This document shows, piece by piece, positions 23,632 through 50,718 of a DNA stretch of 64,000 bases. The position numbers and the translations under genes are program-made. Under the pieces are notes generated by a model. The model made no database searches. It had not been told where the DNA came from and saw only the letters and a program-made list of their open reading frames with translations. The first letter of the stretch is position 1. Every line of letters starts with the position of its first letter. Origin of the DNA: Dechloromonas sp. H13 (GTDB lineage Bacteria > Pseudomonadota > Gammaproteobacteria > Burkholderiales > Rhodocyclaceae); assembly GCF_009469615.1 (NCBI RefSeq), contig NZ_SSXX01000002.1, positions 609,001-673,000 of the forward strand, read 5' to 3'.

Positions 23632-23800
23632 CTCTCCTCCAGAACTCCTGCCATCTGGTTTTTGTTTTTGTGTTGTTGCAAAACGTAGCACCTGCACATT
23701 TTATTAGCAATGTGCCAAGTGCTGTCCGATACCGACCAGCAAATCGTGTGCCACCCGCAGGTGCAGCCGGCTGGCCGGTGGACCGATGTTTCCGATCCCC

Positions 23801-23816
23801 TGGCACAAGGTTTGCA
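23801..23816 (+). promoter_or_regulatory. Sigma-54 (-24/-12) promoter of the pedF operon
   Basis: TGGCAC-N4-TTTGCA with GG and GC at the exact 12-bp spacing. It lies 51 bp before the GTG start. Two TGTGCCA repeats (23711 and 23747) and an imperfect CTG...CAG dyad at 23720-23738 lie upstream, where an activator would bind. Confidence 0.85.
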
Positions 23817-23866: not shown

Positions 23867-24295
23867 GTGAAACATTCATTGCGAAATCTCGCCGCCGTCG
23901 CGGCAACCCTGTTCATCGGCGCGGCTGCCCAGCACGCCTTCGCCCACGGCGACGTCGTTCCCCAGGCCGTCGATACCACCGGCCTCAAGAATCTCGGCGC
24001 CGACTGGCAGAAGAGCAATCCCTACCGCAAGGATAAGACAGCGATCCGCATCGGGGATTCCGCCTTCAACCAGAACTGCGCCCGCTGCCACGGCCTGGGC
24101 GCCATCTCCGGCGGCATCGCCCCGGACCTGCGCTACCTGCCCGTGGGCGACGAGGGCGACGAGGTCTTCATGCCCCGCATCCGCAAGGGTTCGGTGCGCG
24201 ACGGCCGGGTCTACATGCCGCCGTTCGAAGGCACACTGAGCCAGGAAGCCATGTGGGCGATCCGCACCTGGCTGGAAACCGTCCATGAAGACTGA
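23867..24295 (+). CDS. pedF: Cytochrome c-550 PedF-like, PQQ-dehydrogenase electron acceptor
   Basis: Periplasmic monohaem cytochrome of 142 residues. The signal peptide runs to about AAAQHAFAHG; haem binds at C71-x2-C74-H75 (CARCH), and MPPFEG supplies the likely axial Met. The start is GTG with AAGGAG six bases upstream; longer forms would extend through the promoter. PedF-type cytochromes accept electrons from ExaA/PedE-type quinoprotein alcohol dehydrogenases. The gene overlaps the next one by 11 bp. Confidence 0.87.
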   Translation: MKHSLRNLAAVAATLFIGAAAQHAFAHGDVVPQAVDTTGLKNLGADWQKSNPYRKDKTAIRIGDSAFNQNCARCHGLGAISGGIAPDLRYLPVGDEGDEVFMPRIRKGSVRDGRVYMPPFEGTLSQEAMWAIRTWLETVHED

Positions 24296-30622: not shown

Positions 30623-32143
<1,521 letters not shown>

Positions 32144-35001: not shown

Positions 35002-35034
35002 GCTGCGGTCGACGGCGTTTACAGGGCCAAAATC
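35002..35034 (+). repeat. Dispersed bipartite 33-bp motif, copy 6
   Basis: GCTGCGGTCGAC, an 11-bp spacer, then GGCCAAAATC. It overlaps the last codons of the cytochrome c gene on the minus strand. Confidence 0.7.
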
Positions 35035-35396
35035 CAGTTCACCAGCAGGCGGGCGTTGCCTTCGGTGATGGCGACGGCGTTGGGCGGCATCGACAGCCCG
35101 CTGACCTTGCCTTTCCAGTGGCTGCTGTAGGGATTGGAGCCTTCGAGGACGACGCGGGTCAGGAATTCCGAGGCGCCGGGCTTGCCCTTGTATTGTTTTG
35201 CCACTTCGACCCAGGCGGGGCCGATCGGCTTCATGCCGTCGGGGCCGGGCTTGCCGGCTTCGATGCCGTGGCAGGTCATGCAGCCGCTGGTGCTGGCCAG
35301 CTTGAGCATGTCGGCGTCTTTCTTGGCGTCGGCCATGGCCATGGGGCTGGTCAGGCAGGCAGATATCAGGGCAATGGTCAAATAATGATGTTTCAT
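35019..35396 (-). CDS. Periplasmic monohaem cytochrome c
   Basis: 125 residues with a signal peptide cut near PMAMADA, haem motif CMTCH (C39-x2-C42-H43) and a likely axial Met in GLSMPPNAV. It resembles the c551/c552 class. It lies between the two-component system of the ExaA-like enzyme and the unknown membrane protein gene, so it may be another electron carrier for that dehydrogenase. The 60-bp gap before the response regulator stop suggests possible co-transcription with the kinase and regulator. Confidence 0.85.
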   Translation of the reverse strand: MKHHYLTIALISACLTSPMAMADAKKDADMLKLASTSGCMTCHGIEAGKPGPDGMKPIGPAWVEVAKQYKGKPGASEFLTRVVLEGSNPYSSHWKGKVSGLSMPPNAVAITEGNARLLVNWILAL

Positions 35397-35456: not shown

Positions 35457-36104
35457 TCAGGCGGGCAGCGGGCTGCCCATTTCGACCAGGCCGCGCCGGG
35501 CGGCCAGATGAAGCAGTTTGAAATCGCTGTCGGCATCGAGTTTTTGCCGGATCAACGAGAGGTAGTTGAGGACGGTTTTCTGGCTCAGGTGCATGGAGTT
35601 GGCGATCCCGTTGGCCGATTCGCCGTGGACCAGCATGCGCAGGACTTCGAACTCGCGCGGGGTCAGGTGGTGCATGGCGGCATCGCCATCGACTGCCTCC
35701 TGGGCCAGGACGGCGGCGATTTCCGGCGAGAAGACGCGCTTGCCGAGGGCGATGCGGCGGATACCGTCGATGACTTCGTCGGGCTCGCAATATTTGGTGA
35801 GGTAACCGCGGGCGCCGCTTTTGAGGGCCTGGGTGACATGGCCGGCGCCATCGTGCATGGACAGGACAAGGACACGCAGGCGGGGGCAGCGGGCCAGCAT
35901 GCCGCGGATGGCTTCGAGGCCGCTGCTGCCCTTGAGGCTGAGGTCGACCAGGGCGACGTCGGCGTGGACCCGCAGAACCAGCGCATTCGCCTCGTCGGCG
36001 CTGGCCGCTTCGCCGACCACCTCGAAATCTGGCTCGGCGCCGAGCAACCGGCGGTAACCGGTGCGGACGATAGCGTGGTCGTCAATCAGAATGATTCGGG
36101 TCAT
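35457..36104 (-). CDS. NarL/FixJ-family response regulator
   Basis: 215 residues. The receiver domain has acidic pair DD at 8-9 and phosphorylatable D54 (VALVD); a LuxR-type DNA-binding domain is at the C-terminus (LTPREFEVLRMLVHGESANGIANSMHLSQKTVLNYL). It resembles ExaE/AgmR-type regulators of quinoprotein ethanol oxidation. The cognate kinase gene is 22 bp upstream on the same strand, and the exaA-like gene is divergent beyond it. GGGAx-N3-xTCCC palindromes in that promoter are candidate targets. Confidence 0.9.
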   Translation of the reverse strand: MTRIILIDDHAIVRTGYRRLLGAEPDFEVVGEAASADEANALVLRVHADVALVDLSLKGSSGLEAIRGMLARCPRLRVLVLSMHDGAGHVTQALKSGARGYLTKYCEPDEVIDGIRRIALGKRVFSPEIAAVLAQEAVDGDAAMHHLTPREFEVLRMLVHGESANGIANSMHLSQKTVLNYLSLIRQKLDADSDFKLLHLAARRGLVEMGSPLPA

Positions 36105-36126: not shown

Positions 36127-37383
36127 CTACAACTGTGACAGCGGGATGGTTGCGCTCAGGCGCAGGCCGCCGCCGATCCGTGTATCGATGTCGAGCCGGC
36201 CACCTACCATTGCCAGTCTTTCTCGCATGCCAAGCAAGCCGCCGCAGCGGGAAGACCGGCTGGATGGCAGACCGATACCGTTGTCCTCGATGTCGAGCCG
36301 GACATCTCCCTCGGCCAGGGTGACGGTGACGGCGCAATGCCGTGACTGGCTATGGCGAACGACATTGGTCAGTGCCTCCTGAGTGATGCGGTAAAGGGTC
36401 AGGGCGGTGCTTTCGTCGATGTCTGGAAAGCGCCCGGGCAGGCTCAATGCAAATTCGATGCCGGTTTCGCGACCGCGCCAGCCGCCGACCAGTTCACGCA
36501 GCGCGTTGGCGATGCCGGCAGCGTCCAGACCATGCGGGCGGAGCGATTTGAGCATCGCGCGCAATTGCTCGCCGCTGGTCCGGATGTCGCGGCGCAGATC
36601 GCCGGCGCATTCAGCCACCGCGGCGGTATCGAGGCGGCCGGCATTGCGCGCCAGATGGGCGGCCGTAGCGTTGAGAGCGGTCAGGGTCTGGCCCATTTCG
36701 TCGTGCAGCTCGCGGGCCAGCGAGCGGCGTTCGTCCTCCTGAACCGAGATCAACTGGCGGGCCAGCGACTGCTGGGCCGCCCGCGCTTCGGCCAGAGCGG
36801 CGGCCAGTTGCTCGATGGCACCGGCGACACGGCGGAACTCGCGTAAGGCGAAGGCGGGCAGGGCGGGATCGTCTTCGCCCCGGGCCAGGCGGTGCAGGCC
36901 TTCTTCCAGCGCGCGCACCGGGCGCAGGGCGCGGTCGGCAGACCACCAGGCGACGAGCAGGGTTGCTCCAGAATAGAGCAGCAGGGTGATTAAAAGTCGA
37001 ACAGTGTCATCCAGGCGCTCATCGATTTCGGAACGGGGATTGGGAGCGATGTAGAGCGTTTGTCCACCGATCCGGATTTCCCGTTCCATCGGCGCGGCAG
37101 GTGCCAGCCCAAGAATGGCGAGGAGAGGGTGTGCTGTGCCGGTGGGAGGCGGCTGGTTCCCGGTGCGGATGCGCAAGTGGCGGAATTGCGCCGAGGAGAG
37201 TTGCTCGGCGAGATTCGCCTCGCCGCTGCCAGTGGCGAGCAGGACGTTGACCAGGCGTTCCGAGGCATCGACTTCAGCCTGGATGTCGGCGCGCAGGGAA
37301 TGGACCTGGATGACCAGGGCCATGGCCATCAGCCCGGCCAGCAACAGGCCGAGCGAACCGAGCAGGCGGCGGCGCAAATCCAT
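36127..37383 (-). CDS. NarX-like sensor histidine kinase
   Basis: 418 residues. Two membrane segments (about 8-28 and 128-147) frame a periplasmic sensor of roughly 100 residues; then come a HAMP-like linker, a HisKA_3 dimerisation domain with H227 in RELHDEMGQT and an HATPase domain (VVRHSQSRHCAV, DNGIGLP, GLLGMRERL). It lies upstream of its response regulator on the same strand and is divergent from the exaA-like gene. The signal may be an alcohol, aldehyde or PQQ status; the sequence does not say. Confidence 0.9.
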   Translation of the reverse strand: MDLRRRLLGSLGLLLAGLMAMALVIQVHSLRADIQAEVDASERLVNVLLATGSGEANLAEQLSSAQFRHLRIRTGNQPPPTGTAHPLLAILGLAPAAPMEREIRIGGQTLYIAPNPRSEIDERLDDTVRLLITLLLYSGATLLVAWWSADRALRPVRALEEGLHRLARGEDDPALPAFALREFRRVAGAIEQLAAALAEARAAQQSLARQLISVQEDERRSLARELHDEMGQTLTALNATAAHLARNAGRLDTAAVAECAGDLRRDIRTSGEQLRAMLKSLRPHGLDAAGIANALRELVGGWRGRETGIEFALSLPGRFPDIDESTALTLYRITQEALTNVVRHSQSRHCAVTVTLAEGDVRLDIEDNGIGLPSSRSSRCGGLLGMRERLAMVGGRLDIDTRIGGGLRLSATIPLSQL

Positions 37384-37587: not shown

Positions 37588-39456
37588 ATGAAACCGAACA
37601 GCCTCAAATTCCGCCAGACCGTGCTCGCCACGCTGGTCGCTGCTGCCTGCAGCAGCCCGGCCATGGCCAGCAAGACCGTGAGCTGGGAAGACATCCTCAA
37701 CGACGACAAGACGACGACCGACGTGCTGTCCTACGGCCTCGGCCTCAAGGCGCAGCGTTACAGCCCGCTGACCAGGATCAACACCAAGAACGTCGACAAC
37801 CTGGTGCCGGCCTGGAGCTTCTCCTTCGGCGGCGAAAAGCAGCGCGGCCAAGAGGCGCAGGCCTTGGTGCATGATGGCGTGATTTATGTCACGGCTTCGT
37901 ACTCGCGCATCTTCGCGATTGATGCGCGCAGCGGCAAGCGCCTGTGGGAGTACGAAGCCCGCCTGCCGGAAGATATCCGCCCATGCTGCGACGTAGTCAA
38001 TCGCGGCGCCGCCATCTACGGCGACAAGATTTACTTCGGTACGCTCGACGCCAGCATCGTTGCCCTCAACAAGGATACCGGCAAGGTTGCCTGGAAGAAG
38101 AAGTTCGGCGATCACAAGATCGGCTACACGATGACCGGCGCGCCCTTCGTGGTCAAGGACCAGAAGAGCGGCAAGGTGCTGTTGGTCCACGGTTCGTCGG
38201 GCGACGAATTCGGGGTCGTCGGCTGGTTGTTTGCCCGCGATCCGGATACCGGCGAGGAGGTCTGGGCGCGGCCGATGGTTGAAGGTCACATGGGGCGCCT
38301 GAACGGTCAGGACAGCACGCCGACCGGTGATGCCAAGGCGCCGAGCTGGCCGGAAGGTCCCGACGGCAAGAAGGTCGATGCCTGGAACCACGGTGGCGGC
38401 GCCCCGTGGCAGACGGCCAGCTACGACGTGGAGAAGAACATGGTGGTCATCGGTGCCGGCAACCCGGCGCCGTGGAACACCTGGCACCGGACCAAGGAAG
38501 GCGACGATCCGCGCAACTGGGACAGCCTGTTCACCTCGGGCCAGGCCTATGTCGATGCCAGCACCGGTGAGCTGAAAGGCTTCTTCCAGCATACCCCGAA
38601 CGATGCCTGGGACTTCTCCGGCAACAACTCGGTCGTCCTCTTCGAGTACAAGGATCCGAAAACCGGCAAGCTGGTTAAGGCCTCGGCTCACGCCGACCGC
38701 AACGGCTTCTTCTTCGTCACCGACCGCGAGAAGCTGACCAACGGCGCCGGCTACCCGAACAAGCCGACTTCGCTGATCGGTGCCTGGCCGTTCGTTGAAG
38801 GCATCACCTGGGCCTCCGGTTTCGATCTTAAGACCGGCAAGCCGATCGAGAAGGGCAACCGGCCACAGCTACCCAAGGATGGTGCAGAAAAGGGCGAGTC
38901 AATCTTCGTCTCGCCGCCATTCCTGGGCGGCACCAACTGGATGCCGATGAGCTACAGCCAGAAGACCGAGCTGTTCTACATCCCGGCCAACCACTGGGCG
39001 ATGGATTACTGGACCGAAAAGCTGACCTACAAGGCCGGTAACGCCTACCTCGGCCAGGGCTTCCGCATCAAGCGACTGTTCGACGACCACGTCGGCACGC
39101 TGCGCGCCATGGATCCGAAGACCGGCAAGATCGTCTGGGAGCACAAGGAGAAATTCCCGCTCTGGGCCGGCACCATGACCACCGCCGGCGGCCTGGTGTT
39201 CACCGGCACCTCGGACGGCTACGTGAAAGCCTTTGACGCCAAGAACGGCAAGGAGCTGTGGAAGTTCCAGACCGGCTCAGGCGTGGTCTCCGTGCCGATC
39301 ACTTGGGAAATGGACGGCGAGCAATACATTGGCATCCAGTCCGGCTACGGCGGCGCCGTGCCCTTGTGGGGTGGCGATATGGCCGACCTGACCAAGCAGG
39401 TGACGCAGGGCGGCTCGATGTGGGTGTTCAAGCTGCCGAAGGGGTTCAAGGGCTGA
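37588..39456 (+). CDS. exaA: PQQ-dependent alcohol dehydrogenase, Ca-type (ExaA/PedE-like)
   Basis: 622 residues with a cleaved signal peptide (ACSSPAMA) and an eight-bladed quinoprotein propeller. The vicinal disulphide cysteines are C133-C134 in PCCDVVNRG. The active-site segment is WDFSGNN: catalytic D342 followed two residues later by Ser, the pattern of calcium-dependent ExaA/PedE enzymes, without the extra Asp that lanthanide enzymes need. It oxidises short alcohols to aldehydes in the periplasm. GGAG lies 12 bases upstream of the ATG. It is divergent from its likely two-component regulators. Confidence 0.93.
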   Translation: MKPNSLKFRQTVLATLVAAACSSPAMASKTVSWEDILNDDKTTTDVLSYGLGLKAQRYSPLTRINTKNVDNLVPAWSFSFGGEKQRGQEAQALVHDGVIYVTASYSRIFAIDARSGKRLWEYEARLPEDIRPCCDVVNRGAAIYGDKIYFGTLDASIVALNKDTGKVAWKKKFGDHKIGYTMTGAPFVVKDQKSGKVLLVHGSSGDEFGVVGWLFARDPDTGEEVWARPMVEGHMGRLNGQDSTPTGDAKAPSWPEGPDGKKVDAWNHGGGAPWQTASYDVEKNMVVIGAGNPAPWNTWHRTKEGDDPRNWDSLFTSGQAYVDASTGELKGFFQHTPNDAWDFSGNNSVVLFEYKDPKTGKLVKASAHADRNGFFFVTDREKLTNGAGYPNKPTSLIGAWPFVEGITWASGFDLKTGKPIEKGNRPQLPKDGAEKGESIFVSPPFLGGTNWMPMSYSQKTELFYIPANHWAMDYWTEKLTYKAGNAYLGQGFRIKRLFDDHVGTLRAMDPKTGKIVWEHKEKFPLWAGTMTTAGGLVFTGTSDGYVKAFDAKNGKELWKFQTGSGVVSVPITWEMDGEQYIGIQSGYGGAVPLWGGDMADLTKQVTQGGSMWVFKLPKGFKG

Positions 39457-39481
39457 GCGTCAGCCGGCAGCGGGCGTACCG

Positions 39482-39494
39482 GGGAACCATTCCC
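39482..39494. promoter_or_regulatory. Third GGGAx-N3-xTCCC box
   Basis: GGGAACCATTCCC, 26 bp after the exaA-like stop and 99 bp before the pentapeptide-repeat gene. It has the same form as the two boxes at 37450-37484, so the downstream genes may have their own regulated promoter. Confidence 0.4.
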
Positions 39495-39592
39495 GCCCCG
39501 GTATGCTGCCCGATGGAGACGGAACTGCATGGATTCTGTCTCCGTCGGTTGGCTTTGCCCAAGGCTGCCGGGCAAGCTTGCGAGCGAAGACG

Positions 39593-40162
39593 ATGCGAAC
39601 TGTTCATTTCATTTTTGCCCTTTTTTTCCCGTTGACCGCAGCGGTCGCCGAAGAAGCCGCCGATCCGCCAGTCATCGACGGCTGCGGCATCTGGCCGCAC
39701 GCCCGGTGCAGCGGGGCCGATCTGCGCCACGCCAACTTGGCCGGCAAGAACCTGGCCGGGGCCGATTTTTCCGGCGCCAAACTGGCGCGGGCCAACCTCA
39801 CCGGCGCCAACCTGGCCGGCGCCAATTTCGATGGCGCCGACCTGACGGCCGCCAAACTCAACAAGGCTGCCGCGCCGACGGCCACCTTTCGCGGCGCCAG
39901 GCTGGTCGGGGCAGATCTCGAATTCGCCCGCCTGTTCCGCGCCGATTTCAGCAATGCCGACCTGACCGGCGCCAACCTCGAAGCGGCCAAGGCCAATTTC
40001 GCCTGGTTCCCCGGCGCCAGATTGACCAACGCCAACCTCCAGGAAACGAAGATGTTCACCGTCAATCTGCGCGGCGCCGACCTTAGTGGCACTTACCGCC
40101 GCTTTACCGTTTTCCAGGATATCGACGCCGCGGGCTGCACCGGCTGCCCGACGGAATGGTGA
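39593..40162 (+). CDS. Secreted pentapeptide-repeat protein
   Basis: 189 residues: signal peptide (FALFFPLTAAVAEEA), then about 20 tandem A(D/N)Lxx pentapeptides, for example LAGKNLAGADFSGAKLARAN and GADLTGANLEAAKANF, which would fold as a right-handed quadrilateral helix. The C-terminus carries a CTGC pair. A pentapeptide-repeat gene sits next to the quinoprotein ADH genes in Pseudomonas putida too, so it is a recurrent partner of unknown role. The signal peptide is encoded by a copy of the dispersed motif. A cytochrome gene follows 4 bp downstream. Confidence 0.85.
   Translation: MRTVHFIFALFFPLTAAVAEEAADPPVIDGCGIWPHARCSGADLRHANLAGKNLAGADFSGAKLARANLTGANLAGANFDGADLTAAKLNKAAAPTATFRGARLVGADLEFARLFRADFSNADLTGANLEAAKANFAWFPGARLTNANLQETKMFTVNLRGADLSGTYRRFTVFQDIDAAGCTGCPTEW
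39610..39642 (-). repeat. Dispersed bipartite 33-bp motif, copy 7
   Basis: The minus strand reads GCTGCGGTCAAC, an 11-bp spacer with AAAAAAAG, then GGCAAAAATG. It encodes the hydrophobic core of the pentapeptide-repeat protein's signal peptide. Confidence 0.78.
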
Positions 40163-40166
40163 CGCC

Positions 40167-40631
40167 ATGCGCCGCTTGCTGATTGCCCTGACCTGCCTGG
40201 CCGTCACCCACGGCACGCTGGCCGATGCCACCGAAACGGCCGTCGCGCCGACGGTCGACTACGCCAGCCTGCCGCCGCTCGGCGCCGCCTGGCTGGCTGC
40301 CAACCCATATCGCGGCCGCGAAGAGGCACCGCTCATCGGTCGCGCTGCCTACAACCAGGCCTGCGCCCGCTGCCATGGCGCCGATGCGTCGACCAACGCG
40401 GCGCCGGCGCCCGACCTGCGCAACCTCGACCGCGCCTGCCGGCGCATCGCCGATGCCGCCATCAAGGCCAAATGCATGGCCGACAACGACGCCTGGTTCG
40501 CCAAGTCGGTGCGCGGCGGCAAGATCATCGTCGGCGTCACACACATGCCGCCGTGGGACGGCGTGCTGCCGCAGGAACTGGCCTGGGCCATCCAGACTTT
40601 CATCGAATCGCACGTTGGAGCGCCAAAGTGA
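40167..40631 (+). CDS. Periplasmic cytochrome c (c-550 type, quinoprotein partner)
   Basis: 154 residues: signal peptide (LLIALTCLAVTHGTLA), haem site C66-x2-C69-H70 (CARCH), two further cysteines (DRACRR, AKCMAD) that could form a disulphide, and the axial-Met region HMPPWDG. The sequence around ANPYRG and the C-terminus parallels the PedF protein at 23867, so it is a paralogue serving another dehydrogenase. It is the last gene of the exaA-side cluster and is followed by a bidirectional terminator. Confidence 0.86.
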   Translation: MRRLLIALTCLAVTHGTLADATETAVAPTVDYASLPPLGAAWLAANPYRGREEAPLIGRAAYNQACARCHGADASTNAAPAPDLRNLDRACRRIADAAIKAKCMADNDAWFAKSVRGGKIIVGVTHMPPWDGVLPQELAWAIQTFIESHVGAPK

Positions 40632-40634
40632 TCT

Positions 40635-40667
40635 GCCACGGTCAACAGGGAAAAATGGCCAAAAATG
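40635..40667 (+). repeat. Dispersed bipartite 33-bp motif, copy 8 (degenerate left arm)
   Basis: GCCACGGTCAAC (10 of 12 consensus positions), an 11-bp spacer with GAAAAATG, then GCCAAAAATG. It lies between the cytochrome c stop and the terminator. Confidence 0.6.
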
Positions 40668-40704
40668 AAAAACGGCGCGAGGGCCGAAGCCGTCGCGCCG
40701 TTTT
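40668..40704. terminator. Bidirectional intrinsic terminator
   Basis: AAAACGGCGCGA and TCGCGCCGTTTT form a perfect stem with A- and T-runs on both sides, between the convergent cytochrome c and pedH-like genes. It should end transcripts from both directions. Confidence 0.9.
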
Positions 40705-40706
40705 GA

Positions 40707-40726
40707 GCAGGCGCTGCAGCGCCTGC
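40707..40726. repeat. Perfect 20-bp palindrome
   Basis: GCAGGCGCTGCAGCGCCTGC directly follows the terminator and ends 12 bp before the pedH-like stop. It may be a second hairpin or a protein-binding site. Confidence 0.5.
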
Positions 40727-40738
40727 CGTTGTGTCTGG

Positions 40739-42523
40739 TCAGCCCTTGTGCAGCTTGAACACCCAGACGGAACCGCCCTGTTCGAGGTAGTTCACGCGCT
40801 TGGCGACGTCGCCGCCCCACAGCGGCACGGCACCGCCCCAGCCGGAAACGACGCCGACGTATTGCTCGCCGTCCTGTTCCCAGGTGACCGGGGGGGCGAC
40901 GATGCCGGTGCCGGTCTGGAATTTCCACAGTTCCTTGCCGGTCTTGGCGTCGAGCGCCTTCAGGAAGCCTTCCGGGGTGCCGTAGAAGACCAGGTTGCCG
41001 GCCGTGGTCAGCGCGCCACCCCAGAGCGGGGCGTAGTTCTTGTGTTCCCAGACCATCTTGCCGGTCGTCGGGTCGAAGGCGCGCATGGTGCCGATGTAGT
41101 CGTCGTTGAGCGCCTTGATGGTGAAGCCGGCGCCAAGGTAGGCCGCGCCCTTCTTGTAGGAAACCGGCTCGTTCCAGATGTCCATCGCCCACTCGTTGGC
41201 CGGCACGTAGAAGAGGCCGGTCTGCGGGCTGTAGGCCATCTGCTGCTGGTTCTTCCCGCCGAGGAAGGAAGGCGCCGAGAAGACGACCTTGCCCTTCTTG
41301 CCATCCGCATCGGCGCTCGGGTCGCCGGGGCGGCCTTCCTCGATGTAGTTCGGTCGGCCGGTCTTGAGGTCGATGCCGGTGGCCCAGGTGATCTTGTTGA
41401 CGAACGGGAAGGCGTTCAGCAACTTGCCGTTGGTCCGGTCGTTGACGAAGAAGAAGCCGTTGCGGTCGGCCTTGCCGCCGGCCTTGACGATCTTGCCGTC
41501 CTTGCCCTTGTAGTCGAAGGAGACGAACTCGTTCACGCCGTCGAAGTCCCAGCCGTCATGCGGGGTGTTCTGGTAGTGCCAGGCGATCTTGCCGGTATCC
41601 GGGTCGATGGCGACGGTGGATGACGAGTAGAGGTTGTCGCCCGGGCGCAGGTGGCTGTTCCACGGCGCCGGGTTGCCGGTGCCGGCGAAGATCAGGTTGG
41701 TATCCGGATCGTAGGTGGCGCCGTTCCAGGTGGCAGCGCCGCCGGTTTCCCAGAGGTCGCCGGTCCACGAGGCGTTGGTCGTGCCGGTGATGCCGTTCTC
41801 CACCTTGTTGCCCTCCTTGTCCCAGAGGTAGCCCATGTGGCCCTCGACCGTCGGGCGCGTCCACACCATCTTGCCGGTCAGCGCGTCGCGTGCGTCCATG
41901 CGGCCGACGATGCCGAACTCGCCGCCGGAAACGCCGGTGATGACCTTGCCCTTCACGATGATCGGGGCGGCCGTGTACGAGTAGCCGGCGGCGTAGTCGC
42001 CGAGCTTTTCCTTCCACACGACCTTGCCGGTTTCCTTGTTGAGGGCGACCAGCTGGGCGTCGAGCGTGCCGAAGATGACCAGGTTGCCGTACAGCGCGGC
42101 GCCGCGGTTGATCACGTCGCAGCACGGCATGATGCCGTCCGGCAGGCGGTGCTCGTACTTCCACAGCTTCTTGCCGGAGGCGGCGTCGATGGCGAACAGG
42201 CGGCTGTACGAGGCGGTGACGTACATCTTGCCGTCGTGGATGACCGGCTGCGATTCCTGGCCGCGCTGCTTCTCGCCGCCGAAGGACATCGACCAGACCG
42301 GCACCAGATTCTTGACTGTCTTGGCGTTGACCGCAGTCAGCGGGCTGAAGCGCTGGCCCTGGGTGCCGAGGCCGAAGCTGACGACGTCGCCGGGGGTCTT
42401 GGCGTCATTGACGATGTCGGCGTCGGTGACTTCCTTGGCCATTGCCGGGCTGCCGGCAACGGCCGCGGCGGCAAGGAGCGCGATGGTAAGCGCGTGCCGC
42501 TGGGGGAGGGTATGACTGTGCAT
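40739..42523 (-). CDS. pedH: PQQ-dependent alcohol dehydrogenase, lanthanide-type (PedH-like)
   Basis: 594 residues: signal peptide ([10 protein letters not shown]), quinoprotein propeller, vicinal cysteines C134-C135 in PCCDVINRG. The active-site segment is WDFDGVNEF: catalytic D326 and a second Asp at 328. That D-x-D pattern is the established marker of lanthanide-dependent enzymes (XoxF, ExaF, PedH); the exaA-like neighbour has Ser at this place. AAGGAG lies before the ATG; the longer open frame upstream is not coding. It is transcribed from its own sigma-54 promoter, divergent from the SoxYZ/TonB operon. Confidence 0.93.
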
Positions 42524-42653: not shown

Positions 42654-42669
42654 TGCAAGGGCTGTGCCA
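42654..42669 (-). promoter_or_regulatory. Sigma-54 promoter of the pedH-like gene
   Basis: The minus strand reads TGGCAC-N5-TTGCA, a perfect -24/-12 promoter about 130 bp before the start codon. The leader of roughly 120 nt is unusually long for this window. Confidence 0.82.
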
Positions 42670-42776: not shown

Positions 42777-42797
42777 CCTGTTCCAAACTTGCACAGC
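42777..42797. promoter_or_regulatory. Candidate shared activator site between divergent ADH promoters
   Basis: CCTGTTC-N7-GCACAGC is an imperfect dyad of the same form as 32378-32398. It lies about 105-110 bp from both flanking sigma-54 promoters, so one bound activator could serve both. It is inferred by comparison of two sites only. Confidence 0.35.
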
Positions 42798-42881: not shown

Positions 42882-42897
42882 TGGCACGCGGTTTGCA
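42882..42897 (+). promoter_or_regulatory. Sigma-54 promoter of the SoxYZ-like/TonB operon
   Basis: TGGCAC-N4-TTTGCA, identical in both boxes to the pedF promoter, 41 bp before the ATG. It should drive the run of overlapping genes from the SoxYZ-like carrier onward. Confidence 0.87.
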
Positions 42898-42938: not shown

Positions 42939-43709
42939 ATGAAATTCCCCCTGACCATGGCCGCCATTGCGCTGGCCGCGCTGATGCCGCCGGCCGATGC
43001 CGCGGCCCTGCAGGAAAGCGGCGACCCGCTGGCCTCGGCACGCTGGGCCGAGATGGCAAGGACCTTCCTCGCCGGAGCGCCGGTTCTCTTCGACCCGCGC
43101 GTCAAGGTCATCGCTCCCTCGACTGCCGAGAACCCGCTGCAGGTGCCGGTCACGGTCGACGCCACGGCGCTGCCGAAGGTGCAGGAAGTGGTGGTCTTCG
43201 CCGACTTCAATCCGATCGTCCAGGTGCTGCGCTTCTTTCCCGAAGGCAGTGACGCCTACCTCGGCTTTCGCGTCAAGCTGCAGCAATCGACGCCGGTGCG
43301 GGCGGCGGTGCGCACTGCCGATGGCGTCTGGCATGTCGGCGGCACCTGGGTGACGACGGTCGGGGGCGGCTGTACCGCGCCGTCGGCGGCGGCCGCTTCG
43401 CGGGAATGGCAGCAGCGGCTCAACGAGGTGAGCGGTCGCCAGTGGCCGGAAGGGCCGAATGCCGGGCGGGTCCGCCTGCGCATCGTGCATCCGATGGATA
43501 CCGGGCTGGTCGCCGGCACGCCGGCCTTCTTCCTTGAGGAGATCGCCGTCGCCGACGCAGCCGGCCAGCGCCTGATGCGCGTCCAGACCTTCGAGCCGGT
43601 CGCCGAGAACCCGGTGTTCACGCTGCATCGCGGGGCGACCGCCGGGCCGGTCGAAGCCAGCGGCCGCGACAACAACGGCAACACCTTCCGCGCCAGGATC
43701 GCTCCGTGA
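42939..43709 (+). CDS. Quinoprotein-dehydrogenase-associated SoxYZ-like carrier
   Basis: 256 residues: signal peptide (AALMPPADAAA), a SoxY-like part (PLQVPVTVDATALPKVQEVVVFADFNP) and a C-terminal SoxZ-like part (RLRIVHPMDTG...FFLEEI). The C-terminal GGGC-type swinging arm of true SoxY is not seen at that place; a VGGGC-like TVGGGCTAP lies mid-protein, at the end of the SoxY half, and may carry the substrate. This fused form recurs beside PQQ-dependent dehydrogenases. GAGGAG precedes the ATG. It overlaps the metallohydrolase gene by 4 bp. Confidence 0.82.
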   Translation: MKFPLTMAAIALAALMPPADAAALQESGDPLASARWAEMARTFLAGAPVLFDPRVKVIAPSTAENPLQVPVTVDATALPKVQEVVVFADFNPIVQVLRFFPEGSDAYLGFRVKLQQSTPVRAAVRTADGVWHVGGTWVTTVGGGCTAPSAAAASREWQQRLNEVSGRQWPEGPNAGRVRLRIVHPMDTGLVAGTPAFFLEEIAVADAAGQRLMRVQTFEPVAENPVFTLHRGATAGPVEASGRDNNGNTFRARIAP

Positions 43710-44635
43710 AACGCTGGATCGGCCCGGCCCTGAGCCTGTTCGCCGGCCTGGCGAACGCCGCCGGCTTCGATTACGCGCTGCGGGCGCAACCGGTGGCCCC
43801 GGACGTCTACGCCTTCATCGGTCGCAGCGAGGATTTCACGCCGGCCAACGGCGGCAACATCGTCAATACCGGCTTCATCGTCGCGCCGGGCGGCGTCATC
43901 GTCATCGACAGCGGCCCGTCGCGGCGCTACGGCGAGCAGATGCGCGCCGCCATCGCCGCTGTCACGCCGCAGCCGCCGGTGCTGGTCATCAACACCCACC
44001 ATCACCCGGACCACTTTCTCGGCAACCAGGCCTTTGCCGACCTGCCTGCCGGCGCGCTGGCCGCGACCCGTCAGGGCATCGCCGCCGAGGGCAATTCCTA
44101 CGCCGAAAACCTCTTTCGCCTGACCGGCGACTGGATGAAAGGCACCGACGTGCTGGCGCCGACCCGGACACTGGTTGGCGGCACGAGCGAGATCGCCGGC
44201 CGCCGCCTGCGCCTGCTGGCACTCGCCGGCCATAGCGGCGCCGATCTTGCCCTCTACGACGAAGCGAGCGGCGTGCTCTTCGCCGGCGACCTCGTCTTCA
44301 ACGGCCGCGCTCCGACCACACCGCATGCCGACCTCGCGCACTGGCTGGCGGCGCTCGACCGGCTGGAAGCCATTACCCGCGAACCCGGCTTCATGCAGCT
44401 GGTGCCAGGTCACGGTGCGGTCGCCGGCGATGCGTCAGCGCTCCGCCAGACCCGCGCCTGGCTGGTCTGGCTGCAACAGAGCCTGCACGATGCCGCCGCC
44501 GCCGGGCTGGACATGAACGAAGTGCTGGCCCGCCCGCTGCCGCCGGAATTCGCCGATCTGCCGGTGGCGGCCAGCGAATATCGCCGCTCGGTCGGTCACC
44601 TCTTCCCGGCTGCCGAGCAGGCGGTGCTGCAATGA
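43706..44635 (+). CDS. Quinoprotein relay system zinc metallohydrolase
   Basis: 309 residues with a short signal peptide (LSLFAGLANAAG) and a metallo-beta-lactamase fold. The metal motif is NTHHHPDHFLGN, with further ligands in LAGHSGADL, the Asp in LFAGDLVFNG and the late VPGHG. Secreted MBL proteins of this type, paired with a SoxYZ-like carrier, are found beside quinoprotein alcohol dehydrogenases; the substrate is not known. It is coupled by ATGA overlaps to genes on both sides. Confidence 0.85.
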   Translation: MKRWIGPALSLFAGLANAAGFDYALRAQPVAPDVYAFIGRSEDFTPANGGNIVNTGFIVAPGGVIVIDSGPSRRYGEQMRAAIAAVTPQPPVLVINTHHHPDHFLGNQAFADLPAGALAATRQGIAAEGNSYAENLFRLTGDWMKGTDVLAPTRTLVGGTSEIAGRRLRLLALAGHSGADLALYDEASGVLFAGDLVFNGRAPTTPHADLAHWLAALDRLEAITREPGFMQLVPGHGAVAGDASALRQTRAWLVWLQQSLHDAAAAGLDMNEVLARPLPPEFADLPVAASEYRRSVGHLFPAAEQAVLQ

Positions 44636-45324
44636 CGACGGTTGCGGTCGACCGGCGTTTCTGGGCGATTTTCGGCCTGTCGCTCGTCATTCACGCCGTC
44701 GCCCTGGCGCTGCTCAAGACCAGGGAACGGCCGGCTGTCCTGCCGACGATCCTGGCCAGCCTGCGCCTGGTCGCCACCCCCCCCTCCGGATCGACGGCCG
44801 CGCCGCCCCCGGCGCCCGCGCCGGCCGTCGTCCCCCAGCAGGCGAGGCAGCTTCCGCCACGTCGCGAGCACCGGCCGGCTCGCCATGTGGCGGAGGCTGC
44901 TGCGCCGCCAGTCCCGGCCATGCCGGCGGCGGCCACAACGGCAAATTCTGCTGCGACGTCGTCAGTCGCCCACACCGCTCAGCCAGTGGCCGAAGCGCCG
45001 GCGGCACCGCAGGTCGCGCAGGGCAGCCTGCTCGACGCCTACCGCCAGCGCCTGACCGAACTGTTTGCCGGCCACCAGCAATACCCGGCGGTCGCCGCTC
45101 AGCGCGGCTGGGAGGGCGAGGTGCGCCTGCGCCTGTGCGTGGCGCGCAAGGGCAATCTGGTTTCCGTCCACCTCGACCGTTCGAGCGGCTTCGCGGTACT
45201 CGACCAGCACGCGCTGGCCATGCTCGACCGGCTCGCCAGCCTGCCGCCGCTGCCCGAAGGGCTGGAGGCCAGCGAGATCCAGGTCGTCGTTCCGATCAAC
45301 TACCGGCTCAGGAGAGCAACATGA
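44632..45324 (+). CDS. TonB-family energy transducer
   Basis: 230 residues: N-terminal membrane anchor (FWAIFGLSLVIHAVALALL), a Pro/Ala-rich periplasmic spacer (about 50-120) and a C-terminal TonB domain (YPAVAAQRGWEGEVRLRLCVARKGNLVSVHLDRSSG). It has no adjacent exbB/exbD. The dedicated receptor gene overlaps its stop, so it is probably specific for that receptor. The N-terminus VAVDRRF is encoded by a left-arm-only copy of the dispersed motif (44641-44652). Confidence 0.88.
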   Translation: MTTVAVDRRFWAIFGLSLVIHAVALALLKTRERPAVLPTILASLRLVATPPSGSTAAPPPAPAPAVVPQQARQLPPRREHRPARHVAEAAAPPVPAMPAAATTANSAATSSVAHTAQPVAEAPAAPQVAQGSLLDAYRQRLTELFAGHQQYPAVAAQRGWEGEVRLRLCVARKGNLVSVHLDRSSGFAVLDQHALAMLDRLASLPPLPEGLEASEIQVVVPINYRLRRAT

Positions 45325-47639
45325 AGCAACCAGAAAACAGGCAGCGCGCGGTGCTGGCGCTAGCGCTCGCCACCGCCTGGGGCGCGGCGGATGCCGGCGA
45401 AACCGCCATCGAAACGCCGCGCGTCGAGATCGTCGGCACGACGCCGCTGGCCGGCATCGGCGTGCCGCGCCAGCAGATTCCGGCCAATGTCCAGTCGGCC
45501 AGCGGCCAGCAGATCGAGGAACAGGAAAGCCTCAACCTGCCGGACTTCATGGTCCGCCAGCTGCCCGGCGTCAATATGAACGAGGTGCAGGGCAACCCCT
45601 TCCAGCCCGACGTCAATTACCGCGGCTTCAGCGCCTCGCCGCTGCTCGGCACGCCGCAGGGGCTGTCGGTGTACGTCGATGGCGTGCGGGCCAACGCGCC
45701 CTTCGGCGATACGGTCAACTGGGATCTGCTGCCCACTTCCGCCATCGCCGGCATGGACCTCATCCCCGGCTCGAACCCGTTGTTCGGCCTCAATACCCTG
45801 GGCGGCGCGCTGGCCATCCGCACCAAGAGCGGGTTTACCGACCCCGGCGCCAAGATCGAGGTTTCCGGCGGCAGTTTCGCCCGGCGCAACCTGGAACTGG
45901 AGTACGGTGGCAACAGCGGTTCGCTCGGCTGGTACATGGCGGCCGACTGGTTCAAGGAAGACGGCTGGCGCGATTACTCGGGATCGGACGTCAGGCAGTT
46001 CTTCGGCAAACTCTCGCACAAGAGCGCCGCCGGCGAGGCCGACCTGACGCTGACCCGCGCCGTGACCAGCCTGACCGGCAACGGCCTGGTGCCGGATTCG
46101 ATGTACGCTGCGCGCCGCGCCCAGGTCTTCACCCATCCCGACACCACCGAGAACGACCTCACCCAGGTCGCGCTGAACGGCCGCCTGTGGCTGAGCGACA
46201 CGACCAGCCTGAGCGGCACCGCCTATTTCCGCCGGATCACGACCAAGACGCTGAACGGCGACGTCAATGACGAGTTCGAAGACGGCCCCTTCGATGGCGT
46301 GTCGGACCAGGATTCCGGCGCCTACAACCGGACGCAGACGACGCAGCGGGGCAGCGGCGCATCGCTGCAGTGGAACCTGAGCGGCGAACGCCACCAGCTG
46401 GCGCTCGGCGCCTCGCTCGACTACGCCAGCATGGATTTCACGCAAACGCAGGAATTAGGGCTCATCGACGCCAGCCGGGGCATTTCGCTGCTCGGGCCGG
46501 CGGTCGACCAGAACGCGCTGAACGGCACGACGCGCACCACCAGCCTCTACCTGTCCGACACCGTGACGTTGACGCCGAACCTGCACCTGACCGGCTCGGC
46601 GCGCTACAACATGAGCCGCGTCACGACCCACGACGAACTCAACCCCAACCCGCCCAACCTCGACGGCGACCACAGTTATTACAAGCTCAACCCCGCCCTC
46701 GGCCTGACCTGGCAGGCGCTGCCGACCCTCAATGCCTACGCCGGCTTCAGCCAGGGCAACCGCGTGCCGACGCCGATCGAACTGGGCTGCGCCGACCCCG
46801 CCAACCCGTGCACCCTGCCCAACGCGATGGCCGCCGACCCCTACCTGAAGCAGGTCGTCGCCCAGACCCTGGAGGCCGGCGTGCGCGGCCAGCTGGTCGG
46901 CGGCATCGCCTGGAGCGCCGGCGTCTTCCGCACCGTCAGCAAGGACGACATCCTGTTCGTAGGCACCTCGACCAGCGCCGGCTATTTCACCAACTTCGGC
47001 GAGACCCGCCGCCAGGGCCTTGAACTTGGCCTTTCCGGCAGCCAGCGCACCATCGACTGGCGGATCGGCTACAGCTACCTGCAAGCCACCTTCCAGTCGA
47101 GCGCCTGCCTGCTCTCGGAGAACAACAGTTCGCGCGGCACGGCACCGGAATGCACGGCCAACGGCCAGGACGACGAAATCCTCGTCAAGCCGGGCGACCG
47201 CATCCCCGGCCTGCCGACGCACAGCCTCAAGCTCGGCCTCACGTGGCGGGCCGCCGACTGGCTGCGCATCGGCGGCGACGTCCAGGCTTACTCCGGCCAG
47301 TACGCGCGCGGCAACGAAAACAACCAGCATCAGGCCGGCGAGGCGACTGACGCCTTCGGCAATACCCGCAGCTTCGATGGCGCCGGCCGCCTGCCCGGTT
47401 ATGCCATCCTCAACCTCTTCGCCGAAGCCAACCTCGGTGCTGGCTGGCATGTCTTCGGCAAGATCAACAACGTCTTCGACCAGCGTTACGGCACGGCGGC
47501 GGCGCTGGCCGAGAACCCGTTTGCCGGCAACGGCGCCTTCCGGTCCGATTCCGGTACCTGGCGGCATGAAACCTTCCTGGCGCCCAGCGCGCCGCGCGCC
47601 GCCTGGATCGGCCTGCGCTACACCTTCGGCGGCAAGTGA
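45321..47639 (+). CDS. TonB-dependent outer-membrane receptor
   Basis: 772 residues: signal peptide (ALALATAWGAADAGE), a TonB-box-like segment (VEIVGTTPL), plug domain (NLPDFMVRQLPGVNMNE, IPGSNPLFGLNTLGGALAI) and a 22-strand-type barrel ending YTFGGK. GGAG lies eight bases before the ATG. Its place in the operon divergent from a lanthanide-type dehydrogenase, with its own TonB, makes uptake of a lanthanide chelate (or of PQQ) the leading hypothesis; iron-siderophore or copper uptake is the alternative. No siderophore biosynthesis genes are present. Confidence 0.88.
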   Translation: MKQPENRQRAVLALALATAWGAADAGETAIETPRVEIVGTTPLAGIGVPRQQIPANVQSASGQQIEEQESLNLPDFMVRQLPGVNMNEVQGNPFQPDVNYRGFSASPLLGTPQGLSVYVDGVRANAPFGDTVNWDLLPTSAIAGMDLIPGSNPLFGLNTLGGALAIRTKSGFTDPGAKIEVSGGSFARRNLELEYGGNSGSLGWYMAADWFKEDGWRDYSGSDVRQFFGKLSHKSAAGEADLTLTRAVTSLTGNGLVPDSMYAARRAQVFTHPDTTENDLTQVALNGRLWLSDTTSLSGTAYFRRITTKTLNGDVNDEFEDGPFDGVSDQDSGAYNRTQTTQRGSGASLQWNLSGERHQLALGASLDYASMDFTQTQELGLIDASRGISLLGPAVDQNALNGTTRTTSLYLSDTVTLTPNLHLTGSARYNMSRVTTHDELNPNPPNLDGDHSYYKLNPALGLTWQALPTLNAYAGFSQGNRVPTPIELGCADPANPCTLPNAMAADPYLKQVVAQTLEAGVRGQLVGGIAWSAGVFRTVSKDDILFVGTSTSAGYFTNFGETRRQGLELGLSGSQRTIDWRIGYSYLQATFQSSACLLSENNSSRGTAPECTANGQDDEILVKPGDRIPGLPTHSLKLGLTWRAADWLRIGGDVQAYSGQYARGNENNQHQAGEATDAFGNTRSFDGAGRLPGYAILNLFAEANLGAGWHVFGKINNVFDQRYGTAAALAENPFAGNGAFRSDSGTWRHETFLAPSAPRAAWIGLRYTFGGK

Positions 47640-47641: not shown

Positions 47642-49006
47642 ATGCCCGGCCGCCACCAGCTCAGCCTGCACACCCGCATCAGCCTGGTGCTGACCGGGCT
47701 GGCCGCCGCTTTCCTGCTGGCGCTGGCCGGGCTCTGGCTGCAGGGTGCGCGCACCGGCATCCATGAAGAAGTCGAGGCGGCGAACCGCGTCTCGCTGCAA
47801 TGGCTGAAGGCGCTCACCGCTGAAATGCAGGGGGAGCCGCCGGCGGCGCAGGCCGAGCGGGTGCTCGGCACCGTCCGTCCGCTCGGCCGCATCCGCGCCA
47901 ATGCGCTGGAAGTCTTCGCCGCCGACGGCCGCCTGCTGTACCGTTCGCCGCCGCCGACCTACAAGGCCGGGCGCTCGGTGCCGGGCTGGTTCGCCGCCGT
48001 GCTCGCCCCCGGTTTTGCCCCGCGCGCGCTGGAAGTCGGCAGCCTGCGCCTGGTGCTGACGCCGGATGCCTCGCGTTCGCTGATCGACGCCTGGGACGAC
48101 CTGCTGGCGATGGCCGGCTGGGCGCTGCTGCTGCTCGCCGCGCTGTTCGCCGCCACGCGCCGGGCGCTCGACCGTGCCTTGCGCCCGCTGGCTCAGGTCA
48201 TGCTGGCCCTCGACCGCACCGGCGCCGGTCGCTTCGATACCCGCCTGCCGGTCTTTGCCACCCCCGAACTGGGCAGGATTTCGCGCGCCTTCAACGGCAT
48301 GGCCGACCGCCTGGTGGCTGCGGTCGACGCCAACGTACAGCTCGAAACCGAGCGCGAGGTCAGCGAGCACCTGCAGGCCCGCCTCGAAGCGCAACGCCGC
48401 GTCATCGCCCGCGAACTGCACGACGAACTGGCCCAGGGCATCACCGCCGTGCGCGCCTTGGCCGGCGCCATCGTCCAGCGCAGCGCCGGGCTGCCGGCGG
48501 TGCACAGCCCGGCCCAGGGCATCGTCGCCGTCACCGGCGAGCTGCAGGACGGCGTGCGCGGCATCCTGCATCGCCTGCGTCCGCCGGCCGGCGGCCTGGC
48601 GACGACCCTGGAACGCACACTGGTGGCCTGGCAGTTGCAGCACGAAGAGATTGCGCTGGACAGCCGGCTGGCGCTCGGCGCGCAGGCGGTCGGCGACGAG
48701 GTGGCGCAGGCCGTCGTCCGCATCGTCCAGGAAGGGCTGACCAACGTCGTCCGCCATGCGCGGGCGAGCAGGGTCGAACTGGACATCCGCTGCGCCGGCG
48801 GCGCGCTGCACGTTGCGCTGCGCGACGACGGTCGCGGGCGCGACGGCCGGCCGTCGCCGCAGGCCGGCAGCGGCCTCGGCCTGACCGGCATGGGCGAGCG
48901 CGTCGCCCTGCTCGGCGGCGACCTGCGTTTCGAGAATCCTGCCGGCGGCGGCTTCGCGCTGCATGCCCGGCTGCCCCTGGCCATTCCTGTGGAGGAAACA
49001 CCATGA
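47642..49006 (+). CDS. NarX-like sensor histidine kinase of the lanthanide-ADH locus
   Basis: 454 residues. Two membrane helices (about 13-34 and 153-172) bracket a periplasmic sensor; a HAMP region follows, then HisKA_3 with H260 in RELHDELAQG and an HATPase domain (NVVRHARASRVEL, GSGLGLTGMGERVALLGG). The ATG right after the receptor stop is used; a GTG at 47636 overlaps that stop. In P. putida the kinase PedS2 near pedH senses lanthanides and switches the two ADHs, so a similar role is plausible here but unproven. Confidence 0.88.
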   Translation: MPGRHQLSLHTRISLVLTGLAAAFLLALAGLWLQGARTGIHEEVEAANRVSLQWLKALTAEMQGEPPAAQAERVLGTVRPLGRIRANALEVFAADGRLLYRSPPPTYKAGRSVPGWFAAVLAPGFAPRALEVGSLRLVLTPDASRSLIDAWDDLLAMAGWALLLLAALFAATRRALDRALRPLAQVMLALDRTGAGRFDTRLPVFATPELGRISRAFNGMADRLVAAVDANVQLETEREVSEHLQARLEAQRRVIARELHDELAQGITAVRALAGAIVQRSAGLPAVHSPAQGIVAVTGELQDGVRGILHRLRPPAGGLATTLERTLVAWQLQHEEIALDSRLALGAQAVGDEVAQAVVRIVQEGLTNVVRHARASRVELDIRCAGGALHVALRDDGRGRDGRPSPQAGSGLGLTGMGERVALLGGDLRFENPAGGGFALHARLPLAIPVEETP

Positions 49007-49650
49007 ACAACGCCCTGCAAGGCATTCGCGTCCTGCTTGCCGACGACCATGCGGTGGTCCGCCTCGGCTTTCGCCTGCTCCTCGAAGGCGCCGGCGCCGT
49101 CGTCGTCGGCGAATCCGCGGACGGCGAAAGCGCCGTCCGCCGCTATGCCGAATCGACGCCCGACGTCGTCGTGATGGATGTCTCGATGCCGGGCATCGGC
49201 GGCCTCGTGGCGCTCGAACGCCTGCTGGTCTGGGATGCGAAGGCGCAGGTGCTGATGCTCTCGGCGCACCACGACGACGTCGTGCCGGTGCGTGCGCTGC
49301 GCCTCGGCGCCCGTGGCTACCTGTGCAAGCGCGCGGCGCCGGAGGAATTCCTGCGCGCCGTTGGCCAGGTGGCCCGCCGGCAACGCTACCTCGACCCCGA
49401 ACTGGCGCCGGCGCTGGCGCTGGCCCAGTTCTCGGGTTCGGACAACCCGGTCGAGACGCTGACCGAGAAGGAACTCGCCGTTTTCCTCAAGCTGGCCGAG
49501 GGGCGCTCGGTCAACGACGTGGCGGCCAATTTCTGCCTCAGCCCGAGCACCGTCGGCACCCATCTCTATCACATCAAGCAGAAGCTCAACGTGCAGAACG
49601 CCGCCGAACTGACGCTGGTGGCGCTGCGCAACGGGCTGATCGAGGCCTGA
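49003..49650 (+). CDS. NarL/FixJ-family response regulator of the lanthanide-ADH locus
   Basis: 215 residues. The receiver has DD at 14-15 and phosphorylatable D59 (VVVMD); the LuxR-type helix-turn-helix is in LTEKELAVFLKLAEGRSVNDVAANFCLSPSTVGTHL. It is coupled to the kinase gene by a 4-bp overlap. It resembles PedR2-type regulators. It is clearly distinct from the regulator at 35457, so each dehydrogenase has its own system. Confidence 0.9.
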   Translation: MNNALQGIRVLLADDHAVVRLGFRLLLEGAGAVVVGESADGESAVRRYAESTPDVVVMDVSMPGIGGLVALERLLVWDAKAQVLMLSAHHDDVVPVRALRLGARGYLCKRAAPEEFLRAVGQVARRQRYLDPELAPALALAQFSGSDNPVETLTEKELAVFLKLAEGRSVNDVAANFCLSPSTVGTHLYHIKQKLNVQNAAELTLVALRNGLIEA

Positions 49651-50592: not shown

Positions 50593-50718
50593 GGCGGCGG
50601 GGCAGGGCGGCCGCCGTCTCGCAAAAATCATGAGCCGCGATTCCCGATTTCCCCGGCGCGCCGGGGTGCCCGATGACCAACAATGAACCATCGCCTCGCA
50701 GTCGTCGAAAGGAAGATC

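Follow-up and report, generated by a model that had tools for sequence, protein, structure and literature searches.

A predicted calcium-type and a predicted lanthanide-type quinoprotein alcohol dehydrogenase in one island of Dechloromonas sp. H13, with candidate sigma-54 control and a candidate lanthanide receptor

What turns on a lanthanide-dependent alcohol dehydrogenase, and how does the lanthanide cross the outer membrane outside methylotrophs? Candidate answers are provided by the surroundings of two quinoprotein alcohol dehydrogenase genes, exaA and pedH, in a stretch of 64,000 nucleotides of Dechloromonas sp. H13 (contig NZ_SSXX01000002.1 of assembly GCF_009469615.1, positions 609,001 to 673,000), analysed as a whole and called here the window. 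The locus is best explained as a ped/exa-type island for periplasmic alcohol oxidation, with predicted calcium-type and lanthanide-type ethanol dehydrogenases, both of which need pyrroloquinoline quinone (PQQ). The reading that we favour, with a probability of about 0.62, places the lanthanide-type enzyme under sigma-54 with an outer-membrane receptor of its own, and the calcium-type enzyme, as a backup, under a sensor kinase and a LuxR-type response regulator encoded next to it (HK36 and RR35).

Enzyme types and metal ligands

Both proteins pass TIGR03075, the model of PQQ-dependent methanol/ethanol dehydrogenases. The exaA product (622 residues) has as its best solved relative 1flg, ExaA of Pseudomonas aeruginosa, with 988.6 bits against 662.8 for 6zcv; the pedH product (594 residues) is closest to 6zcv and 6zcw, PedH of P. 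putida, with 879.2 bits against 749.6 for 1flg. A preliminary description of this DNA had read WDFSGNN in the former and WDFDGVN in the latter, and both motifs are there, at residues 341 and 325 respectively, as are the exact start positions that it gave. Two residues after the catalytic aspartate (D+2), the protein nearest to ExaA carries serine, one of the two residues (Ser or Thr) that go with the ExaA/PedE type; the protein whose nearest characterised relative is PedH carries aspartate, together with the glutamate, the asparagine and the catalytic aspartate of the PedH/ExaF type. The description had further taken this second aspartate for the lanthanide ligand, an assignment that is well founded: the published rule places Ser in PedE and Asp in PedH (PMC5487730), and the four positions that bind the metal in PedH, Glu199, Asn281, Asp323 and Asp325 (PMC11845868), are matched and conserved here. 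Calcium in the exaA-type and a lanthanide in the PedH-type enzyme are the metals that we would predict.

Relatives were gathered in two sets that overlap, as they share some species. The first comprises 80 named loci, the closest being those of Dechloromonas, Azonexus and other Rhodocyclaceae; the second is a family survey covering 199 genomes, with 81 retrieved stretches around the enzyme genes. Culturable relatives with the paired locus include Dechloromonas denitrificans ATCC BAA-841 and D. hortensis. Genome searches scored the best 5 to 9 candidates per genome, and absences are provisional. In an alignment of 105 sequences D+2 is Asp in all 70 PedH-type and Ser in all 35 ExaA-type proteins, a division so complete that it cannot be due to chance; the Glu, the Asn, the catalytic Asp and a neighbouring Cys pair are invariant throughout, and the four metal ligands of PedH are retained in 70/70 PedH-type sequences. 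The named loci agree, with Asp in 79 of the 80 PedH-type proteins (one was unread by the pattern) and Ser in all 18 cases where an ExaA-type gene falls within the retrieved stretch.

In the family survey the ExaA type was found in 35 genomes and the PedH type in 66, both occurring together in 30, the ExaA type alone in 5, the PedH type alone in 36 and neither in 128. Two of these entries are affected by contig ends: in G095, counted as having the ExaA type only and set apart where stated, the expected place of the PedH-type gene falls at the end of the contig, and in G196, counted under neither, the receptor and the kinase HK47 discussed below stand at a contig start, so that its enzyme gene may be missing because of a break in the assembly. 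The preponderance of genomes with the PedH type only over those with the ExaA type only suggests that these bacteria of water and soil may usually oxidise alcohols with the help of rare earths. Where both types are present, the genes are convergent within one stretch in 18 genomes, divergent in 5 (one genus) and on separate contigs in 7; among the named loci with an ExaA-type gene, 17 pairs are convergent and one, in Piscinibacter, is divergent. The genus with divergent pairs in the survey (g6; L145, L146, L147, L149 and L151) has no strong HK36, and four of its five members lack the palindrome found before exaA elsewhere. Plasmid pTB101 of Aquabacterium olei (L176) also carries a PedH-type gene that has a sigma-54 element; genes for a pentapeptide protein, a cytochrome c, a kinase and a regulator are nearby, and an unannotated gap of 2.3 kb could house one of the ExaA type.

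A search of the whole genome with PF01011 gave four matching stretches, all of them in exaA and pedH, which are the only genes of this family in the genome. Elsewhere, a third PQQ_2-type match (G000:C6:192176-193093) is best explained as BamB-like. Within pedH, ARAGORN called an antisense tRNA-Thr (41662-41743), most likely a false call, as a search with Rfam gives no tRNA anywhere in the window.

Promoter elements and candidate regulators of the pair

Motif searches from random starts recovered different elements before the two types of gene. Upstream of PedH-type genes they found a -24/-12 element of the sigma-54 type and an inverted repeat, TGTTCCA-N-TTTGGAGCA, and upstream of ExaA-type genes a palindrome, CCGGGAA-N3-TTCCCGG; each is worth about 20 bits, and a shuffle control, made on the pedH set and only for the inverted-repeat seed, reached 8 to 10 bits. 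In seeded runs the sigma-54 element was placed in 63/65 and the inverted repeat in 60/65 pedH upstreams, the palindrome in 32/34 exaA upstreams. A fixed sigma-54 pattern, with at most one mismatch, was present in 65 of 67 PedH-type upstreams, against a mean of 3.5 and a largest value of 9 in shuffles. Among the named loci, 78/80 PedH-type and 0/17 ExaA-type genes are preceded by TGGCAY-N5-TTGC; with groups read from the record titles, the former are 62/62 outside Burkholderiales and 16/18 within. No such site lies in the 400 bp before the start of a PedH-type gene of Azospirillum lipoferum.

The 3.66 Mb genome of strain H13 itself contains seven perfect sigma-54 sites (none for a reversed-pattern control), three of which belong to the island, before pedF, the PedH-type gene and the soxYZ gene; the genome encodes RpoN as well as an enhancer-binding activator. 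Across relatives the element was found before pedH in 59/69 cases, before soxYZ in 34/52, before pedF in 12/24, before HK36 in 10/31 and before exaA in 3/35. A GAF-modulated sigma-54 regulator is listed, in a figure legend, among methanol dehydrogenase cluster genes (PMC11845868), so that regulators of this kind near such enzymes are not unheard of. In the accessible portions of the literature on quinoprotein or lanthanide alcohol dehydrogenases in connection with sigma-54 or RpoN, on lanthanide receptors and on lanthanides in Rhodocyclaceae or Dechloromonas, the wiring proposed here was not found reported.

On the exaA side it is the kinase that follows the enzyme. HK36 was detected in 26 of 35 genomes with the ExaA type against 4 of 164 others and, within genomes with the PedH type, in 24/30 of those with exaA against 4/36 of those without it. 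The cut-offs used for HK36 (E <= 1e-70) and for the second kinase, HK47 (E <= 1e-82), were both set after seeing the tables, and the gap on which the latter relies is narrow. The palindrome, with at most two mismatches, is present in 26/26 exaA upstreams of genomes with HK36 and in 2/9 of those without, which makes it a candidate operator of RR35. Its count in the whole window at that stringency (4) does not exceed that of shuffles (4.67), so that the argument for it is one of position and conservation. Taken as a marker of a genome-wide regulon it was rejected, with 14 copies at one mismatch or less in the genome against 10 for the reversed control. A near-copy lies just past the exaA stop (39481-39495), within a larger inverted repeat that resembles a terminator or attenuator. 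The model of the HK36 sensor, at pLDDT 73.8, is weak, and none of the matches listed for it by Foldseek reaches E 0.001. In position and type HK36/RR35 agree with PedS2/PedR2, a likeness by description. Scanning 37000-43500 for sigma-70 promoters gave none, where shuffles gave 0.6; a -10-like TACACT/TATACT before exaA was seen by eye only.

The preliminary description had set the two genes side by side, convergent, with a strong terminator between them. They do converge and a hairpin does separate them (36 bases at -27.6 kcal/mol, whose outer stem of 12 bp ends in AAAA/TTTT), one that a simple terminator scan, whose counts do not exceed those of shuffles (7 against 5.6), does not include; the genes are not back to back, as two others intervene. 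The terminator had also been offered in support of a metal switch, about which it says nothing.

The accessory operon and its receptor

Because the genes in 42939-50592 abut or overlap (junctions of -4, -4, -4, +2, -4 and 0 bases), they probably form one transcript behind the sigma-54-type element at 42882. The receptor encoded there has the plug and the barrel of TonB-dependent receptors, the domains expected of a LutH-type protein. By sequence it has no solved relative at E 0.001 and no NCBIfam model above cut-off, the best being a siderophore-receptor subfamily (114.6 bits, cut-off 223.5), followed by PqqU (102 bits, cut-off 1200). Surveyed at E <= 1e-60, it accompanies the PedH type: it was found in 30/30 genomes with both enzymes, 25/36 with the PedH type only, 1/5 with the ExaA type only (G095) and 5/128 with neither. 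With G095 set apart it is absent from the four remaining ExaA-only genomes (Fisher test against the PedH genomes, p 0.0015). What these retain differs: G130 and G169 keep soxYZ, the metallohydrolase gene, HK47 and RR49, with the PedH gene, tonB and the receptor not found at the locus, and G109 keeps soxYZ and the metallohydrolase gene. In three of the four (G130, G161 and G169) exaA has a sigma-54 element and lacks the palindrome.

HK47 is present in 45/66 PedH genomes, 4/5 ExaA-only genomes and 1/128 with neither enzyme. Its periplasmic domain, predicted with a pLDDT of 91.6, has a LapD orthologue as first rank with Foldseek (E 0.049, probability 0.94) and as second with VIA (Z 8.4, rmsd 4.2, 124 aligned), where an integrative model of WalK comes first (Z 9.7). 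The Pfam family LapD_MoxY_N matches two of four scanned relatives, below cut-off, and does not match the window protein. A LapD/MoxY-like sensor is what these comparisons suggest, without going further.

We can then picture how the island might operate. When alcohol is present, the GAF-type activator would probably fire, and from the sigma-54 promoters the cell would make the lanthanide-type enzyme, PedF and the products of the accessory operon: SoxYZ carrier, metallohydrolase, TonB, receptor and the HK47/RR49 pair. The receptor would probably import lanthanide, most likely as a chelate. HK36/RR35 would drive the calcium-type enzyme through the tandem palindromes, in the manner of PedS2/PedR2 on pedE in P. 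putida, and this enzyme would take over when lanthanide is short.

The features on which this picture is built are collected in Table 1, with the rest of the island. As in a ped cluster, genes for PedF, a pentapeptide protein, a SoxYZ-like carrier and a metallohydrolase accompany the dehydrogenase genes. Between exaC and the small cytochrome gene lies a frame of 598 codons (33085-34881), hydrophobic by eye, with no Pfam or NCBIfam match. Further away, the window starts with genes resembling an NAD-linked nickel hydrogenase (34-3701, NuoF-like and nickel hydrogenase domains) and holds two poly(3-hydroxyalkanoate) synthase-like genes (6192-7955 and 17374-19122) as well as an RbbA-type ribosome-associated ATPase/ABC protein (9063-11801; NF033858, 1546 bits), followed by a gene that matches the permease half of the same model.

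Table 1. Positions of the genes and sequence elements of the island (window coordinates)
Feature	Positions	Strand	Basis or remark
Sigma-54-dependent activator with GAF domain (enhancer-binding protein)	21658..23631	-	beside pedF
Sigma-54-type element before activator gene	23739..23753	-	
Sigma-54-type element before pedF	23801..23815	+	
Cytochrome c550 PedF	23867..24295	+	TIGR04494 above cut-off
Periplasmic binding protein	24285..25130	+	PedG-like position
Beta-propeller protein of PQQ clusters	25138..26076	+	TIGR03866 below cut-off
Acetaldehyde dehydrogenase ExaC	30623..32143	-	NF050026 above cut-off
Small c-type cytochrome	35019..35396	-	
LuxR-type response regulator of exaA side (RR35)	35457..36104	-	
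Sensor histidine kinase of exaA side (HK36)	36127..37383	-	
Palindrome CGGGAA-N3-TTCCCG upstream of exaA	37449..37463	.	candidate RR35 operator
Second, tandem palindrome CGGGGAG-N2-CTCCCG upstream of exaA	37470..37485	.	
ExaA/PedE-type PQQ alcohol dehydrogenase (exaA), Ser at D+2, predicted calcium	37588..39456	+	start codon at 37588, structure relatives, alignment
Pentapeptide-repeat protein	39587..40162	+	position like that of PedD (described in PMC12997753); start codon uncertain
c-type cytochrome, PedF-like	40167..40631	+	below family cut-off (109.7 against 122 bits)
Hairpin between convergent units, likely bidirectional terminator	40669..40704	.	found by reading the sequence
PedH-type PQQ alcohol dehydrogenase (pedH), Asp at D+2, predicted lanthanide	40739..42523	-	start codon at 42523, structure relatives, alignment
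Sigma-54-type -24/-12 element of pedH	42655..42669	-	conserved in relatives
Inverted repeat, candidate enhancer	42779..42795	.	between two divergent sigma-54 elements
Sigma-54-type element before soxYZ operon	42882..42896	+	
Quinoprotein-associated SoxYZ-like carrier	42939..43709	+	TIGR04557
Quinoprotein relay zinc metallohydrolase	43706..44635	+	TIGR04558
TonB protein	44632..45324	+	
TonB-dependent outer-membrane receptor, candidate lanthanide (lanthanophore) receptor	45321..47639	+	
Sensor histidine kinase (HK47)	47642..49006	+	periplasmic domain possibly LapD/MoxY-like
LuxR-type response regulator (RR49)	49003..49650	+	
Prolyl aminopeptidase	49651..50592	+	last gene of abutting run
pqqE (PQQ synthesis)	50683..51864	+	500 bits; 90 bases past operon

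Alternative readings and known systems

Several observations weigh against the arrangement that we favour. At the threshold used, 11 of the 36 PedH-only genomes have no receptor, which is therefore not indispensable (some of these loci show weak receptor-like matches). HK47/RR49 had to be dropped as a strict partner of lanthanide use, since HK47 is kept in 4/5 ExaA-only genomes. Before pedF the enhancer repeat has weak matches and no clear copy, and upstream of the pedH gene of the window the palindrome does not occur within two mismatches. The split between promoter types is not absolute either: at one mismatch or less the exaA/HK36 spacer holds sigma-54-like sites toward exaA in 6/35 cases and toward the divergent neighbour in 17/35, and a seeded search of exaA upstreams yielded a weaker motif of this kind (15.6 bits, both strands), so that in some members of the family sigma-54 may also govern HK36/RR35. 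Finally, the surveyed genomes are related, leaving three or four independent contrasts for each comparison; these go in the expected direction or are tied, and are too few for p 0.05 to be reached. On the exaA tree the PedH type and the receptor are lost together in 3/3 independent pairs (with G095 kept, 3/4 with one tie), HK36 and the palindrome agree in 2 to 3 of 3, and loss of PedH goes with a sigma-54 element at exaA in 2/4. G130 and G161, near-identical in exaA, were counted as one, and because three other members of the genus of G169 (G103, G139 and G193) have the PedH type without the receptor, its case of joint loss is not clean.

Could the island be a plain PedE/PedH switch, where HK36/RR35 alone, as a PedS2/PedR2-like system, activates exaA and controls pedH directly, sigma-54 adding only induction by alcohol? 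P. putida offers the precedent (PMC6115532; PMC12997753), and the exact exaA palindrome does stand upstream of pedH in 5/67 relatives, all with both enzymes, of which the four with an exact -24/-12 carry the palindrome 40 to 48 bp ahead of the -24 element; with one mismatch or less it is found in 8/34 pedH upstreams of genomes with exaA against 1/33 of the others (p 0.027). We nevertheless hold such a switch unlikely, as the palindrome is lacking before the window's own pedH and, within two mismatches, in 50/67 relatives, as its presence there at two mismatches is not significantly associated with HK36 (p 0.26), and as the 36 genomes that have the PedH type without exaA include 32 without a strong HK36. 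The preliminary description had supposed that the organism changes enzyme with metal supply, as P. putida does; the exchange itself is plausible, but the means would differ, given the distinct promoter types, the two LuxR-type systems and the sigma-54 activator gene found here.

The cargo of the receptor might also be PQQ, or some other compound of the alcohol pathway, rather than a lanthanide. Its second-best NCBIfam match, PqqU, and the proximity of pqqE speak for this; yet the score of pqqE indicates that the genome encodes PQQ synthesis, and the need for PQQ common to both enzymes fits poorly with a receptor not found in the four ExaA-only genomes, in two of which HK47/RR49 and soxYZ/metallohydrolase persist at the locus. 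We find this rather improbable, and still more so the view that D+2 is a mere marker of lineage, the PedH-type enzyme working here with calcium and the two enzymes differing by substrate or oxygen. In favour of the latter, PedH without rare earths may coordinate calcium (PMC11845868), and metal heterogeneity has been proposed within type 2b alcohol dehydrogenases (PMC11996626); against it, PedH is active in vitro with lanthanides only (PMC5487730), and all its metal ligands are retained in the PedH-type relatives. Since PedH may accept calcium and a PedE-type enzyme keeps 60-80% of its activity in 10 mM lanthanides (PMC10409515), activity with calcium alone would count only softly against a lanthanide enzyme. 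Beyond the favoured reading of a sigma-54-controlled lanthanide enzyme with its own receptor, it is tempting, and somewhat less probable than not, to see lanthanide use as the default in these betaproteobacteria (alcohol-induced sigma-54 regulon, dedicated receptor and MoxY-like sensor), with the calcium enzyme as a separately regulated spare; a lineage that lost the lanthanide enzyme would have lost the receptor with it, and in some lineages the calcium enzyme would have taken over the sigma-54 promoter.

The pair of enzymes as such is of a known kind, that of PedE and PedH in P. putida. One PQQ alcohol dehydrogenase gene is reportedly dependent on sigma-54, according to an earlier study cited in PMC6115532, a dependence that it would share with the predicted pedH promoter. 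The ped cluster of P. putida KT2440 (PMC12997753) resembles the island in many respects: calcium-type and lanthanide-type enzymes in one place, a LuxR-type two-component system, a pentapeptide protein, PedF, a PedG-like protein and SoxYZ/metallohydrolase. Of the lanthanide ABC transporter PedA1A2BC, the search covered TIGR03863, an ABC binding protein of PQQ clusters and possibly PedA, which gave no match in the H13 genome. In contrast with KT2440, the pair is convergent here, sigma-54 elements stand before the lanthanide-type gene and the accessory operon, and this operon includes TonB, the receptor and a second kinase/regulator pair. In P. putida, PedS2/PedR2 activate pedE and partly repress pedH, whose activator was unknown in 2018 (PMC6115532); a 2026 review has PedS2-PedR2 inducing pedH when rare earths are present (PMC12997753), and PedR1 stands above them (PMC13390443). 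The 2026 review also states that KT2440 lacks a homologue of LutH, and regards the route of lanthanide through its outer membrane as unsettled. The lut/lan clusters of methylotrophs do tie a TonB-dependent receptor, LutH, to lanthanide use (PMC11845868), a likeness by description; unlike them, operon 42939-50592 contains no ABC transporter gene. As for the control of methanol dehydrogenase by MxaY of M. buryatense, which has a LapD/MoxY sensor domain (PMC6115532), the sensor of HK47 is weakly LapD-like, below family cut-offs, and the target genes here encode ethanol-type enzymes. What is new with respect to these systems is the regulatory wiring and the link to a receptor, a variant of the rare-earth switch that is worth following: if true, it would provide candidates for the activator of pedH and for the passage of lanthanide through the outer membrane, both unsettled in P. 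putida.

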